This document shows, one piece after another, positions 13,600 through 22,214 of a stretch of 36,055 nucleotides of DNA. Source of the stretch: Lactobacillus sp. (lineage in GTDB: Bacteria; Bacillota; Bacilli; Lactobacillales; Lactobacillaceae); NCBI GenBank assembly GCA_022651245.1, contig JALCQM010000029.1, positions 1 to 36,055 of the forward strand, written 5' to 3'. The number at the start of each line of letters is the position of its first letter. The stretch's first letter is position 1. A model generated the notes under the pieces. It was not told the origin of the DNA and made no database searches. It saw only the letters and a list, made by a program, of their open reading frames with translations. The position numbers were made by a program, and so were the translations under genes.

Positions 13600-14793
<1,194 letters not shown>

Positions 14794-14861
14794 GGGTGGC
14801 TGAAAGCCGGATAATCTGTTACAGTATTAGACGAACGAATAAAAAAAACGAGGTGCCTATA

Positions 14862-15239
14862 TTGGGTAATTATTCCATGATTTTACTGATCGTCGTCATG
14901 TTTGCCTTCATGTACTTTGGCATGATGCGACCACAAAAGAAGCAACAACAAAAGCGCGCCGAAATGTTACAGCAGATGAAAAAAGGCGATAAAGTCGTGA
15001 CGATCGGTGGGTTACACGGTGTCATCGATAGCATTGATAATGCTAAAGGCACTGTTGACCTCGATCTTGACGGTATCTTCTTGACCTTCAACTTGAGCGC
15101 GATCCGGACAGTTGATCCGACTGCAACTGCAACCACGGCCGCGACGACGCAATCCGAGTCCACAGAGACGGCGGATAAGGTAGAAGCTAAGTCGGACGCT
15201 GATGACAATGCGGACGATGACAAGTCGGATAAAGATTAA
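14862..15239 (+). CDS. yajC: Preprotein translocase accessory subunit YajC
   Basis: This 125-residue membrane protein is the SecDF-associated YajC. It has one N-terminal membrane segment (about residues 5-21), then the family motif FGMMRPQKKQQQKR and MKKGDKVVTIGGLHGVI. A threonine/alanine-rich then very acidic tail of about 35 residues ends the protein. I choose TTG at 14862 because GAGGTG sits six bases upstream; a frame open from 14796 would add 22 non-conserved residues. It lies 68 bases after tgt, the standard order, and is closed by a strong terminator. Confidence 0.92.
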   Translation: MGNYSMILLIVVMFAFMYFGMMRPQKKQQQKRAEMLQQMKKGDKVVTIGGLHGVIDSIDNAKGTVDLDLDGIFLTFNLSAIRTVDPTATATTAATTQSESTETADKVEAKSDADDNADDDKSDKD

Positions 15240-15249
15240 GCAAACTGAG

Positions 15250-15274
15250 ACCGCCCCGTTGTGGGCGGTTTTTG
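15250..15274 (+). terminator. Intrinsic terminator after yajC
   Basis: ACCGCCC (15250-15256) pairs with GGGCGGT (15263-15269), followed by TTTTT. Confidence 0.88.
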
Positions 15275-15356
15275 TATGCCGTAGATTTTGAGTGCACGCC
15301 AGTCACTTCCTCGTGATCGCAAAAAAACCGTGTGTTAGCTCGTCATGAGTTTTGTG

Positions 15357-15390
15357 GCGCCAACGTCGCCGCGCTACGTTGGCGCTTTTT
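15357..15390 (+). terminator. Second plus-strand terminator in the yajC-adhE gap
   Basis: GCGCCAACGT (15357-15366) pairs with ACGTTGGCGC (15376-15385), then TTTTT. It lies about 85 bases beyond the yajC terminator with no gene between, so either it is a back-up or it ends a short unrecognised transcript. Confidence 0.75.
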
Positions 15391-15452
15391 GAATTGTTTG
15401 TTAGTTATTCGCGTCCTTGTGCAGCACCGCCTTTCCTTCTGGTACGGGGTCG

Positions 15453-15554
15453 TCAGCCAGGATTAATTTCGTCAAAGCGGCTCAATGACAACTCGGTGTG
15501 TTCATCATTTTCAATCCCTTCGTTCGTTAGCTTCGGACCACTGATCGGGTGCTC
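15453..15554 (-). pseudogene. Possible C-terminal protein remnant without a start
   Basis: A minus-strand frame runs from just after a TAG at 15555-15557 to TGA at 15453-15455. It encodes 33 residues (from EHPISGPKLTNEG to FDEINPG) with no ATG, GTG or TTG start near its 5' end. It looks like a clipped C-terminus next to the inverted repeat. It may also be chance. Confidence 0.2.
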
Positions 15555-15751
15555 CTATATACAAAGAGGCAATTAACCTTCGAAAAAGAGAGTGCTCTCA
15601 TCGAACTTTAATATTAAAAAATAAATTTTTCGTCGTGTATGACATGCGCCGCAACCGGTACACGACAATTAGCCTAAAAAATTGTGCGTAGACGCCTCTC
15701 TTTTTTGACCCTAAATTGCCTCTTTGTATATATAAGGGTCACCGATCAGTC
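15540..15751. repeat. Long inverted repeat with divergent promoter-like arms
   Basis: The left arm (15540-15592) and right arm (about 15698-15751) are inverted copies. Their core AATTGCCTCTTTGTATATA (15714-15732) is a perfect 19-base inverted match to 15556-15574. Similarity continues outward (ACTGATC/GATCAGT) and inward (GAGAG/CTCTC with the A/T tract). The 139-base spacer contains the palindrome GTCGTGTA (15632-15639)/TACACGAC (15659-15666) and AT-rich TTTAATATTAAA. Each arm reads outward as a promoter. Confidence 0.8.
15705..15732 (+). promoter_or_regulatory. Promoter of the large RNA
   Basis: TTGACC (15705-15710) and TATATA (15727-15732) are 16 bases apart (18 if the overlapping TATATA at 15729 is used). 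The start would be near 15740. The mirror arm has TTCGAA-N17-TATATA pointing the other way, with a poorer -35 box. Confidence 0.65.
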
Positions 15752-16295
15752 CCTTATCGCGATCACGTGAGTCGCTGGTATTCTGCCCCACAGAAACCAG
15801 CGCGGGGCACGTGCGGTCGCTGAAAGCGACGTGGGCCCACGCCGCTTTCGCCTAGCCATTGTGCCGATAGTGCGACCTTTCGTCTTATCGCCTCAGCCGG
15901 TTAGGCCCCTGTTGTCCGTCGCTTTGGCCTGGTTTACCCGATGTGCTAGCGCCGTTCGCTAGACGCATCACCGCAGGCACCCCCGCTGAGGTCGCGCGCC
16001 AAGATCGTTGCGACCCACCTGTACCATTGCCGCGCCTTGCGCGTGACCAAAGAGCATACCGATACGCACGATACCGGCTAGCGTCAATGCACACGCCCCT
16101 ATAAAGCCTCTATGCTCATGCCGCAGTCCGGACCAGTTGCCCTCGGTCCCTCTTCGCTCACGGCTTGGCCCGGCCACTGTCCGTTGTCCCCGTGCCTGTG
16201 GGCACCACCCGCGACGATTTGGCGCCGCGGTACTTACAACTGAAGCGCCAAAGGCTCACAGCGTTCAGGCGTTGGGGGTCTTTGGTGTGCAAAAA

Positions 16296-16420
16296 ACCAG
16301 AGCAGAGCATCGCGGTTTTAGCGGTGTGTGTAAGGCAGCCTGGTCGTTGTGCGGCGCCAGCCGTGCAGCGGCCGGGATGACTTACACGCAACCGCGTTGC
16401 GCTGCGGCGCTCGACGATGA
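16296..16420 (+). repeat. Tandem structured repeat, unit 1
   Basis: The unit begins with ACCAGAGCAGAGCA and ends with GCTCGACGATGA. GAGC/GCTC closes the unit, CGCGGTT (16311-16317) pairs with AACCGCG (16390-16396) and GTGTAAG (16328-16334) with CTTACAC (16381-16387). Confidence 0.8.
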
Positions 16421-16546
16421 ACCAGAGCAGAGCAAGGACGGGCCTAGGGGTGGGTATAAGGCGGCGTGACGCGTTATGGCGTAGCCATAGCGTGGCGCGA
16501 CGACTTATACACGACCCCGTTGTCCTTGCGTAGCTCGACGATGAAA
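16421..16546 (+). repeat. Tandem structured repeat, unit 2
   Basis: The edges are the same as in unit 1. The outer stem is GCAAGGAC (16432-16439) with GTCCTTGC (16522-16529). The inner stem is GTATAAG (16454-16460) with CTTATAC (16504-16510), a paired G-C to A-T change relative to units 1 and 3. Confidence 0.8.
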
Positions 16547-16667
16547 ACCAGAGCGCAGCAAGCCGGTTTTAGCAATGTGTGTAAGGCGGCTTGGGTGCGT
16601 CGCGGCACGCGGCGTGAACGGGATGACTTACACGCAATTGCGTTGCGCTGCGGCGCTCGACGATAAA
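16547..16667 (+). repeat. Tandem structured repeat, unit 3
   Basis: Edges are shared with units 1 and 2. GCAAT (16572-16576) pairs with ATTGC (16637-16641), GTGTAAG (16579-16585) with CTTACAC (16627-16633), and GCAG-CAA (16555-16561) with TTGCGCTGC (16643-16651). Confidence 0.8.
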
Positions 16668-16713
16668 GCACCTCCCGAAAGGCTAGATGACGGCACCTTC
16701 AGTCGTTGCGCGG

Positions 16714-16753
16714 AGACTTGTGGCCGGATATCACCCGAGCACAAGTCTTTTTT
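16714..16753 (+). terminator. Intrinsic terminator of the large RNA
   Basis: AGACTTGTG (16714-16722) pairs with CACAAGTCT (16740-16748), followed by TTTTT. It is unidirectional (plus strand), which fixes the coding strand of the RNA upstream. Confidence 0.85.
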
Positions 16754-16927
16754 GCTGCCGACATGGAAAAAGATGGCGGAGCGGAAGACTTCGTGAAATT
16801 AATAATACAGTTAGCAGCAGAATGAAGCACAGAAAAAAGATTTATTGAGAAGAAAGTTCATAGTGTAACAATTTAAAAGGACGATATATTGAAGGAAAAT
16901 GCCTAATCTAGCCTGATTTCAAAAAAA

Positions 16928-16945
16928 TCGTGAAAAATATCACCA
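16928..16945. promoter_or_regulatory. Rex-like operator upstream of adhE
   Basis: GTGA (16930-16933), six A/T bases, then TCAC (16940-16943) lie inside TCGTGAAAAATATCACCA, two mismatches from the TTGTGA-N6-TCACAA Rex consensus. It ends about eight bases before the -35 box. A second half-site TTGTGA is at 16985-16990, and TTCACAA overlaps 16960-16966. Rex represses fermentative genes when NADH is low, which suits adhE. Confidence 0.55.
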
Positions 16946-16951
16946 AACCTG

Positions 16952-16980
16952 TTTACAAATTCACAACAATCGGTTATATT
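16952..16980 (+). promoter_or_regulatory. adhE promoter
   Basis: TTTACA (16952-16957) and TATATT (16975-16980) are exactly 17 bases apart, 52 bases before the adhE start. Confidence 0.75.
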
Positions 16981-17032
16981 GTTCTTGTGAAATGGTTAAC
17001 GAAAAAATTTCGACTCGTGGAGGGAACGTAAC

Positions 17033-19660
17033 ATGCTGAAATCGTCTGACAAAAAAACTGTACAAGACACCAAGGCTGTTGATGTTGATAAGATGATCGA
17101 TGAACTCGTTAAGAATGCCCAAGAGGCATTGGAAATCATGAAGGGCTTCGATCAAGAGAAGGTCGATCATATCGTGCACCGGATGGCGATCGCAGGCCTG
17201 GATCACCATATGGAGCTCGCGAAGTTAGCGGTTGAAGAAACCGGCCGTGGGGTTTATGAAGATAAAGCGATCAAGAACATGTTTGCCACTGAAGAAATCT
17301 GGCATTCGATCAAGAATGACAAAACCGTTGGGGTCATTAACGAAGACAAACAAAAGAATGTGGTTTCGATCGCAGAACCGATCGGCGTTATCGCTGGGGT
17401 GACCCCAGTCACGAACCCAACGTCGACGGTGATGTTCAAATCTGAAATTGCGATCAAGACGCGTAACCCGATCATCTTCTCCTTCCACCCAGGCGCCCAA
17501 AAGTCTTCCGCTCGTGCGTTAGAAGTCTTGCGTGATGAAGCGGTGAAGGCCGGGTTACCAGCTGGCGCATTGCAGTTCATTGCCGTGCCAAGTATTGAAG
17601 CGTGCCAGGCCTTGATGCATCACCCAGGGGTGGCCACGATCTTAGCCACCGGCGGCCCAGGCATGGTGAAGTCCGCTTATTCTTCTGGCAAACCTGCATT
17701 AGGGGTCGGTGCTGGGAATGCCCCGGCATATATCGAAGCCAGTGCCGATGTCAAGCAAGCCGTCAATGATATCATGCTTTCCAAGAGTTTTGACCACGGG
17801 ATGGTTTGTGCTTCCGAACAAGGGATGATCGTTGATGCACCGATCTACGATAAGGTGAAGCAAGAATTTAAGGATCAAGGGGCGTACTTCATTCAAAAGA
17901 AAGATATGAAGAAGTTCACCGAAACCGTGATCAACACTGAAAAGATGGCCGTTAATCCGCGGATCGTGGGCCAAAGTGCTTGGCAGATCGCAAACTGGGC
18001 AGGCATCGATATTCCTAAAGATACCCAGTTGATCATTGCTGAACTACCAGAACCAGGTGATAAGTACCCATTGTCCCACGAAAAACTGAGCCCAGTTTTG
18101 GCGATGTTCAAAGCAACCGATCATGAGGATGGGTTCGCGAAGGCAGAAAAAATGCTCGACATCGGTGGTCTTGGCCATACGGCTGTAATTCACACCCATG
18201 ATGAAGATTTGGCGTTAGCTTATGCCGATAAGATGCAGGCGTGCCGGATCTTGGTCAACACCCCATCCACGATGGGCGGGATCGGTGATTTGTACAATAA
18301 TATGATCCCATCCTTGACACTGGGTTGTGGCTCTTACGGTGGTAACTCAATTTCGCATAACGTGGGGACGATCGACTTGTTGAACATTAAGACATTGGCT
18401 AAGCGCCGTAATAACATGCAATGGGTCAAACTACCACCGAAGATTTACTTCGAACGCAACTCGGTTCGCTACCTGGAAAAGATGGACGGACTCGACCGCG
18501 TCTTGATCGTCGGTGACCGAGGCATGGAAAAGCTCGGTTACGTGCGGATTGTTGAAGACGTGTTGAAGAATCGGACGAACAACGTTGATATTCAGACGTT
18601 CTTGGATGTTGAACCGGATCCATCCAGCAACACGGTGTACAAAGGCACGGCAATCGCTAAAGACTTCAAGCCGGATGCGATCGTAGCCGTTGGTGGTGGT
18701 TCCGTCATGGATGCGGCCAAAGGAATCTGGTTGTTCTATGATGGCGATGGTGACTTCTTCGGTGCCAAGCAAAAGTTCTTGGATATCCGTAAGCGGACTT
18801 ACAAGTTCCCGAAGCCAACGAAATCCAAGCTGGTCTGCATCCCGACGACTTCAGGAACTGGTTCTGAAGTGACCCCATTTGCGGTCATCACGGATTCGGA
18901 TACCGGTATCAAGTATCCATTGGCTGACTATGCCTTGACCCCTGATGTGGCCTTAGTTGACCCGCAGTTCATTGAAACGGTGCCGGCAAAAGTCGTTGCG
19001 GATACTGGGCTGGATGTGATCTGCCACGCCACCGAAAGTTTCGTTTCGACGATGGCTAGCTCCTACACTCGCGGCTTGTCGCTGGAAGCGCTGAAGTTAG
19101 CCTTTGATAATTTGGAAGCTTCTTATAACGGCGACTTGGAAGCCAAGGCCAAGATGCATGATGCCTCGACCATTGCCGGGATGGCCTTCGCCAATGCCTT
19201 GTTAGGGATCAACCACAGTATCGCGCACAAACTGGGACAGACGTACCACTTGCCTCATGGACGTTGCATCGCGATCAGCTTCCCACACGTGGTTCGCTAC
19301 AATGCCAAGACCCCGACCAAGCGTGCGGTTTGGTCGAAGTATAACTACTTCAAGGCAGATGAAGATTACGCCCAAATTGCTCGGTACTTGGGGCTTAAAG
19401 GCAACACGACGGCAGAATTAGTCGAAGCCTTTGTCCAAGCTTATATCGATCTTGCTGGTCGTATCGGCGTCAAGATGAGCCTGAAGGAACAAGGCATTTC
19501 TAAAGAAGACGTGTTGGCGAATGCAGATCGGATCGCCGAGTTAGCTTATGAAGATAACTGCACGGTGACTAACCCGGTTGAACCATTGATCGCAGACATG
19601 AAACAAATTGTCTTAGATGAGTATGAAGGCACCGCTTCGGATCCGTCCGTTCGCGCCTAA
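17033..19660 (+). CDS. adhE: Bifunctional acetaldehyde-CoA/alcohol dehydrogenase AdhE
   Basis: This 875-residue enzyme reduces acetyl-CoA to acetaldehyde and then ethanol, using two NADH. The N-terminal aldehyde dehydrogenase half has its catalytic C259 in MVCASEQG and the VTPVTNPTS block. From about residue 455 the iron-dependent alcohol dehydrogenase half shows GGGSVMDAAK, PTTSGTGSEVTPF and the metal ligands around DVICHATES and NHSIAHKLG...HGRC. The length is typical and both halves look intact. ATG at 17033 follows GGAGGG. Regulation by Rex is likely from the operator. In heterofermentative lactobacilli this is the main electron sink, which makes zwf nearby meaningful. AdhE usually forms spirosome filaments. 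Confidence 0.97.
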   Translation: MLKSSDKKTVQDTKAVDVDKMIDELVKNAQEALEIMKGFDQEKVDHIVHRMAIAGLDHHMELAKLAVEETGRGVYEDKAIKNMFATEEIWHSIKNDKTVGVINEDKQKNVVSIAEPIGVIAGVTPVTNPTSTVMFKSEIAIKTRNPIIFSFHPGAQKSSARALEVLRDEAVKAGLPAGALQFIAVPSIEACQALMHHPGVATILATGGPGMVKSAYSSGKPALGVGAGNAPAYIEASADVKQAVNDIMLSKSFDHGMVCASEQGMIVDAPIYDKVKQEFKDQGAYFIQKKDMKKFTETVINTEKMAVNPRIVGQSAWQIANWAGIDIPKDTQLIIAELPEPGDKYPLSHEKLSPVLAMFKATDHEDGFAKAEKMLDIGGLGHTAVIHTHDEDLALAYADKMQACRILVNTPSTMGGIGDLYNNMIPSLTLGCGSYGGNSISHNVGTIDLLNIKTLAKRRNNMQWVKLPPKIYFERNSVRYLEKMDGLDRVLIVGDRGMEKLGYVRIVEDVLKNRTNNVDIQTFLDVEPDPSSNTVYKGTAIAKDFKPDAIVAVGGGSVMDAAKGIWLFYDGDGDFFGAKQKFLDIRKRTYKFPKPTKSKLVCIPTTSGTGSEVTPFAVITDSDTGIKYPLADYALTPDVALVDPQFIETVPAKVVADTGLDVICHATESFVSTMASSYTRGLSLEALKLAFDNLEASYNGDLEAKAKMHDASTIAGMAFANALLGINHSIAHKLGQTYHLPHGRCIAISFPHVVRYNAKTPTKRAVWSKYNYFKADEDYAQIARYLGLKGNTTAELVEAFVQAYIDLAGRIGVKMSLKEQGISKEDVLANADRIAELAYEDNCTVTNPVEPLIADMKQIVLDEYEGTASDPSVRA

Positions 19661-22018: not shown

Positions 22019-22092
22019 ATTTGTATGTCTTGGCAGGGGAAATGGCATTGCGGTTAAGCCCGTCCTGGCTTCGCTCACGCTAAACGCGTTCC

Positions 22093-22190
22093 CCGATGCA
22101 AGGGTGAGCGTTCTAACTGGTCACGGCGGCGTGCGGCTGTTCGCCACCCACCACCATGCCCTGTTAGACCGTCACCCTTAATCGCATCGG
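22093..22190 (+). other. Long hairpin between zwf and dinB
   Basis: CCGATGC (22093-22099), AAGGGTGA (22100-22107) and TCTAAC (22112-22117) pair in order with GCATCGG (22184-22190), TCACCCTT (22172-22179) and GTTAGA (22163-22168). The loop is about 45 bases and GC-rich. The dinB ribosome binding site begins ten bases later. It may be a leader structure or a small RNA; the overlapping 60-codon frame at 21999 is not convincing. Confidence 0.6.
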
Positions 22191-22214
22191 CTCACGCTCT
22201 GGAAGGAGAACCGA

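Follow-up and report, generated by a model that had tools for sequence, protein, structure and literature searches.

What is the DNA between yajC and adhE in this Lactobacillus sp., and does it encode a protein, an RNA or neither? The window, i.e. the whole stretch analysed here, comprises 36,055 nucleotides, and the region of interest covers positions 15740–16753. As the first-pass annotation had placed it, this region lies between YajC (14796–15239, PF02699) and the bifunctional aldehyde/alcohol dehydrogenase AdhE (17033–19660). Its description as GC-rich is likewise accurate, with 60–63% GC in the 500-base windows of 15750–16749 versus 40–53% in the other windows of 14000–18500. The genome belongs to Lacticaseibacillus: AdhE is 97% identical to its counterpart in the sister species, L. 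baoqingensis 47-3, and DNA identity with this species is 85% across 1485 bases running from upstream of yajC into yajC.

The region is a composite: a core RNA (15736–16290) is followed by three hairpin units (16295–16661), and both recur in the genome. A single RNA unit of ∼1 kb had been proposed; instead, the conserved RNA stops near 16290 and the remainder up to 16661 consists of tandem units of a hairpin repeat found across the genus. With moderate confidence, we regard the region as a copy of a structured, stand-alone RNA gene that forms a multi-copy family specific to this lineage. The parts of the region and its surroundings are as follows.

15425–15538, minus strand: decayed remnant of a small gene, the 71-aa ORF that at own-genome copy C6 is found left of the element in divergent orientation (blastn)
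15556–15592, minus strand: left inverted arm, a reverse-facing promoter-like copy (inverted repeat I1, 37 nt, 86%), with an exact TTGCCTCTTTGTATATA
15598–15695, no strand assigned: AT-rich region with a AAAAATAAATTTT centre, conserved in the seven own and four L. baoqingensis 5′ copies
15696–15733, plus strand: right arm of the inverted repeat, with the promoter-like motif TTGACC-16-TATATA at 15706–15733
15736–16290, plus strand: core, a large structured RNA of ∼555 nt (copies in both species, pair conservation, covariation)
15773–15807, plus strand: H-type pseudoknot, 15773–15779/15797–15803 with 15786–15789/15804–15807 (pair counting on copies)
15833–15838, plus strand: GGGCCC hairpin tip, self-complementary, a candidate kissing loop, invariant in 10/10 copies
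15971–15980, plus strand: 5′ strand of a long-range 10-bp helix (helix 10), paired in 6/6 copies
16192–16201, plus strand: 3′ strand of helix 10, which spans 211 nt
16249–16285, plus strand: 3′-terminal hairpin of the core (helix 17), terminator-like, 98.1% of cells paired
16295–16415, plus strand: hairpin repeat unit 1 (R2 model, 121.8 bits)
16420–16539, plus strand: hairpin repeat unit 2 (R2 model, 111 bits)
16546–16661, plus strand: hairpin repeat unit 3 (R2 model, 96.8 bits)
16714–16753, plus strand: terminator-like inverted repeat I4 (16714–16748) followed by T5

The intrinsic terminator proposed to close the region is present as a plus-strand inverted repeat with its T5, but the rule of the terminator scanner does not list it and it is not seen at copy C38. 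A further terminator-like hairpin followed by T5 occurs between yajC and the element (15328–15393), in a stretch that by eye is missing from L. baoqingensis; its Rfam match, ncS54, scores under the family cut-off. The gene remnant is recognized by the alignment of 15425–15512 with positions 743–830 of locus L117, which carries copy C6 (76% over 88 nt, blastn), where the frame is open; its extent to 15538 was set by eye.

No credible gene had been seen in the region, and the copies bear this out. ORFs are short, and copies differ by indels of 1, 2 and 4 nt (1, 1, 1, 2, 2 and 4 nt, among others, between the cores of the window and of L. baoqingensis copy L172). The core of the window contains nine frames that run for 45 or more codons without a stop, one of which is open also in C38 and in L171–L173. 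The check suggested earlier, for a conserved protein frame across the region, returns only this one, of 53 codons (16082–16240). It is open in six of the copies that span it whole, from both species, is frameshifted in C30 and L174, and has no coding signature; differences from L171 fall at codon positions 1, 2 and 3 in the numbers 20, 15 and 15. A protein-coding reading was rejected, because indels shift the frame and third positions show no excess of differences.

Multiplicity is the next property of the element. A blastn search of the own genome with 15500–16860 gives at least 76 matches within the best 40 of 103 candidates, and these form two classes. The left class (∼15598–16290) is represented by seven five-prime parts (window, C38, C6, C46, C24, C43 and C73) and six three-prime parts (window, C38, C42, C63, C30 and C66). 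Only the window and C38 hold whole cores; every other piece ends at a contig end, as expected when a long repeat interrupts an assembly. The core is therefore present in at least seven copies, a lower bound like all own-genome copy counts, for which the best 40 of 103 and the best 20 of 31 candidates were scored. Among these matches no internally truncated own core is seen, and where >100 columns overlap, own cores are pairwise 92.4–99.3% identical. The right class (16295–16661) consists of the three ∼120-nt hairpin units, which elsewhere occur without the core at many places, mostly as tandem arrays. At the 3′ end of own cores, three units are found in the window, two in C38 and three plus a part in C63, with remnants discerned by eye in C42, C30 and C66.

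In L. baoqingensis, four loci (L171–L174) match all of ∼15555–16296 with 66–69% identity, and hairpin units are absent from all four core copies. Core identity is 65.8–69.6% between the species and 88.7–93.5% among the L. baoqingensis copies. The upstream region is conserved together with the core in both species, with identities of 62.3–71.2% between species, 79.0% between the window and C38, and 89.3–96.4% within L. baoqingensis. In one L. baoqingensis copy (L174, 1787–2484), an internal deletion takes out one core hairpin.

For the sites compared, the places of the element differ between the two species. The yajC–adhE gap of L. baoqingensis measures ∼305 nt between blast blocks and is without a copy, and none of the four L. 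baoqingensis copies has a flanking gene in common with those own copies that entered the comparison. A blastp comparison of flanking ORFs from ten own and four L. baoqingensis loci, the window's own flanks being left out, links the two species only via ABC-type ATPases (30–36% identity) and an ORF inside the element, which is read as no common site. Hence an RNA belonging to a housekeeping locus, as first described, gives way to an element with at least seven own copies and none in the yajC–adhE gap of the sister species. Neighbours scanned with Pfam belong to different families. The downstream neighbour lies on the opposite strand at nine of the ten sites where it is known, adhE being the exception (probability of at least nine at even odds, 0.011); among these nine genes, those at C38, C66 and L171 rest on ORF length, with no Pfam match, and the one beside C30 reads by eye as AroE.

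The distribution is narrow. Covariance models of the 5′ domain (R1) and of the 3′ domain (R3) have convincing matches in the same two of 397 Lactobacillaceae genomes, among the matches listed under strict filters and with a small number of candidates scored for each genome, and R1 finds only L. baoqingensis among 15 named Lacticaseibacillus genomes. Weak R3 matches (E ≤ 0.01) in six other genomes were not counted, the terminal hairpin resembling an ordinary terminator; of the four that were aligned (L227–L230), this hairpin provides most of the match in three and all of it in the fourth. Likewise, R1 matches in seven further genomes of 30 at E ≤ 10 (best E 0.135) were taken as chance. A phage or plasmid origin was considered and set aside, with no blastn match in phage or plasmid collections, and two exact motifs searched in viral contigs were found in none. 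No published description of the core or of the hairpin repeat was found among the open-access papers listed.

The fold of the core is kept in both species. Hairpins, possible pseudoknots and a long-range stem had been noticed in the single sequence, and comparison upholds all three: the pseudoknot, a covarying hairpin tipped by GGGCCC, the long-range helix and the terminal hairpin are common to both species. Pseudoknot loop pairs are kept in all ten copies with letters at both sides and never vary, its upper stem shows a C–G/U–A double change, and four of the seven pairs of helix 6, under the GGGCCC tip, have double changes. The terminal hairpin resembles terminator-like hairpins of other genomes. 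Covariation among homologues, which the first-pass annotation had proposed to look for, is present. RNAalifold on six copies (the window, C38 and the four from L. baoqingensis) yields 181 pairs, 25 of which have at least one double-sided change. The assembled structure, with 175 nested and four pseudoknot pairs drawn mainly from this six-copy fold, was counted on 14 copies, eight of them partial. Standard pairs make up 91.6% of 1628 cells versus 87.2 ± 0.4 in shuffles, in a structure derived from six of the same sequences. Double changes affect 33 pairs (23.6 ± 2.5 in shuffles) and 79 cells (33.9 ± 4.0) but represent few independent events, since the 14 copies effectively form two clusters. 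For covariation, the score is 0.077 (0.049 ± 0.002). For these four measures, none of 500 shuffles is as high, and sliding the 3′ partners leaves 34.5–40.5% of cells paired and at most six double-change pairs. A fifth measure fails, since its 67 further pair types are reached by 493 of the 500 shuffles, and the weakest helices are helix 14 (79.6% of cells paired) and helix 1 (79.7%). Free-energy z-scores are −3.12 for the plus strand of the window (15740–16290), −5.73 for L172 of L. baoqingensis and −2.29 for the minus strand of the window. The core shows a weak excess of G·U over A·C variants (inner pairs, 21 to 11; all pairs, 33 to 20).

As to the hairpin units, the window and the fetched own loci yielded 104 that are near full length, and 56 were picked by hand for alignment, most of the low-scoring tail being left out. 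Of the cells in these 56 units, 97.3% are paired; double changes occur at 23 of 43 pairs, and the covariation score reaches 0.397 versus 0.150 ± 0.006 when shuffled and at most 0.086 when slid. G·U variants outnumber A·C variants (48 versus 4 at inner pairs, 64 versus 20 at all pairs), which points to an RNA of the plus strand of the array, although the sequences are related and these variants are not independent events. Units occur in 27 of 30 Lacticaseibacillus genomes, with at least 120 in the own genome and 105 in the genome taken as L. baoqingensis; across Lactobacillaceae, the model finds 29 of 301 genomes at E ≤ 1e-5. The species assignment of that genome follows from contigs, coordinates and scores identical to those obtained with the genome of the L. 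baoqingensis locus. In the own genome, 16 of 35 arrays start within 4 nt of a same-strand stop codon, counting open frames of at least 100 codons read stop to stop and arrays that lie beyond the initial 400 nt of the fetched sequence. The repeat is also seen in the window at 22083–22202 and at loci L116–L152.

Upstream of the core, the right arm is on the 5′ side in all seven own and all four L. baoqingensis five-prime copies; the left arm is present in three of the seven and in all four, respectively. TTGCCTCTTTGTATATA has ten exact sites in the own genome, all at the element (seven right arms and three left arms), and with three mismatches two further sites away from it. The promoter that had been read here stands in part: TTGACC-16-TATATA is at 15706–15733 and AAATTGCCTCTTTGTATATAT, on its −10 side, is identical in 7/7 own five-prime copies, but the −35 varies among own copies (TTGACC, TTGGAC or TTGGCC), no recognizable −35 occurs in the four L. 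baoqingensis copies, and a consensus promoter scanner does not list the motif. A sigma-70 reading is thus only partly supported, and the variable −35 may indicate recognition by another sigma factor or dependence on an activator. At copy C6 (L117, 571–4000), the left arm faces several small genes, beginning with the 71-aa ORF and continuing with those for a DUF2922 protein, for a short product that includes a hydrophobic segment, for a GH25 lysin and for an AAA_21 ATPase. The 71-aa ORF, without a Pfam match, is presumably DUF1659-like. In this copy, the same motif may drive both sides.

Three other explanations deserve weighing. The main one, which we hold possible but clearly less probable, is a non-autonomous mobile element whose inverted arms and structured RNA are recognized by an unseen mobility enzyme, the RNA serving its own spread and having no function for the cell. 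Presence in only two species and at different positions fits such an element equally well: no orthologous position is seen (no flanking gene shared by the four L. baoqingensis copies, an empty yajC–adhE gap), the core diverges more between species (66–70%) than the flanking genes do (85%) while copies within a genome are 89–99% identical, and R1 finds the core in just two of 397 genomes, among the matches listed under strict filters. Against this, the element contains no transposase ORF, visual inspection of the four L. baoqingensis sites recognized no target duplication, no truncated copy appears among the matches listed except for the internal deletion of L174, the left arm is missing in four of seven own copies, and the RNA fold is conserved.

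That the fold acts as DNA, either as a cruciform or as a protein-binding site, is improbable. The minus strand, too, is more stable than its shuffles (z −2.3) and the G·U versus A·C asymmetry of the core is weak, as a DNA reading would have it; yet the plus strand folds relatively better, the promoter-like right arm is 5′ in all 11 five-prime copies (seven own and four L. baoqingensis), and a pseudoknot together with a helix spanning 211 nt would be hard to form in a cruciform. Slightest of all is the chance of a cis-acting leader or 3′ tail of neighbouring genes (riboswitch, attenuator or termination block): copies do adjoin gene ends and terminator-like hairpins, but the scanned neighbours are from different families, and with nine of ten downstream neighbours on the other strand the core cannot be their leader.

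According to the preferred reading of a family of stand-alone RNA genes, transcription would start near 15736–15740 from the right promoter arm. Comparison of the copies suggests that the ∼555-nt RNA folds compactly: the 5′ domain would contain the pseudoknot, a 10-bp helix would close the 3′ half and a hairpin would end the molecule. In the window copy, transcription probably continues through the three hairpin units to the terminator at 16753. We infer that the product is stable and acts as RNA, perhaps as a dosage-amplified scaffold or as a component of an RNP. Given its invariant palindromic GGGCCC loop, it may self-associate. Duplication or transposition would account for the likeness of copies within a genome and for their differing places. 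It is tempting to go further, though with considerable doubt, and to propose an RNA-only gene family: a self-associating 555-nt RNA, whose promoter and RNA multiply and relocate as a unit without a protein of their own, whose copies are kept alike as rRNA operons are, and which bears hairpin arrays 3′ as do the stop codons of many protein genes.

Few large structured RNAs are known from bacteria, and for most of them no function is known. A repeated candidate of this kind, which has a defined fold and a common promoter-like region and can be compared between two related species, is directly testable, and since no common position was found between the sister species, it bears on how large RNAs arise and spread.

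Among known systems, the candidates named at first were ROOL, GOLLD, OLE and HEARO. An Rfam search gives no match at the gathering score in the window and nine loci, and none of these four families appears up to E 10 (15240–17030; L172, 1800–2700). Without a covariance-model match, membership in ROOL or GOLLD fails. Nor is their setting, in phages, prophages or plasmids near tRNAs, found here, with no tRNA in the window and the ten loci checked and no phage, plasmid or viral match. ROOL, which includes a 520-nt lncRNA of L. salivarius, resembles the core in size, pseudoknot, stand-alone character and occurrence in lactobacilli; it differs in that the core has no Rfam match up to E 10, is multi-copy and has no tRNA nearby. 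ROOL is reported to be abundant but non-essential in L. salivarius and to form a cage of eight chains seen by cryo-EM (PMC12286853); in the core, the one feature that bears on such an oligomer is the invariant palindromic loop. GOLLD shares the large, ornate form and the occurrence in Lactobacillales, but no Rfam match links it to the core, and among the Pfam-scanned neighbours only the GH25 lysin beside C6 could be of phage kind.

Mobile and palindromic repeats provide another comparison. The hairpin units resemble REP/BIME-type palindromes in being dispersed, intergenic and of high copy number, but they measure ∼120 nt versus 20–40 bp for REPs (PMC3733652), stand in direct tandem, have the G·U polarity of RNA and in many arrays abut a stop codon. 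As for insertion sequences and MITEs, the arms bracket the upstream region and not the whole element, no target duplication is seen by eye, and own partial copies, among the matches listed, all end at contig ends.

A further comparison is with the L. plantarum supermotifs (LPSM; Wels et al. 2009), which PMC5643018 describes as 800–1000 nt long, intergenic, transcribed and present in many copies, and as known from no Lactobacillus species other than L. plantarum. Searching 11 Lactiplantibacillus genomes (including L. plantarum EGD-AQ4) with R1, in a run without a positive control, yields no match at E ≤ 1. The core shares their multi-copy, intergenic and lineage-restricted character, with at least seven plus four copies in two of 397 genomes. 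On the preferred reading, the core would work in the manner of ROOL or of the supermotifs, its nearest working models, the proposed likeness being one of mode.
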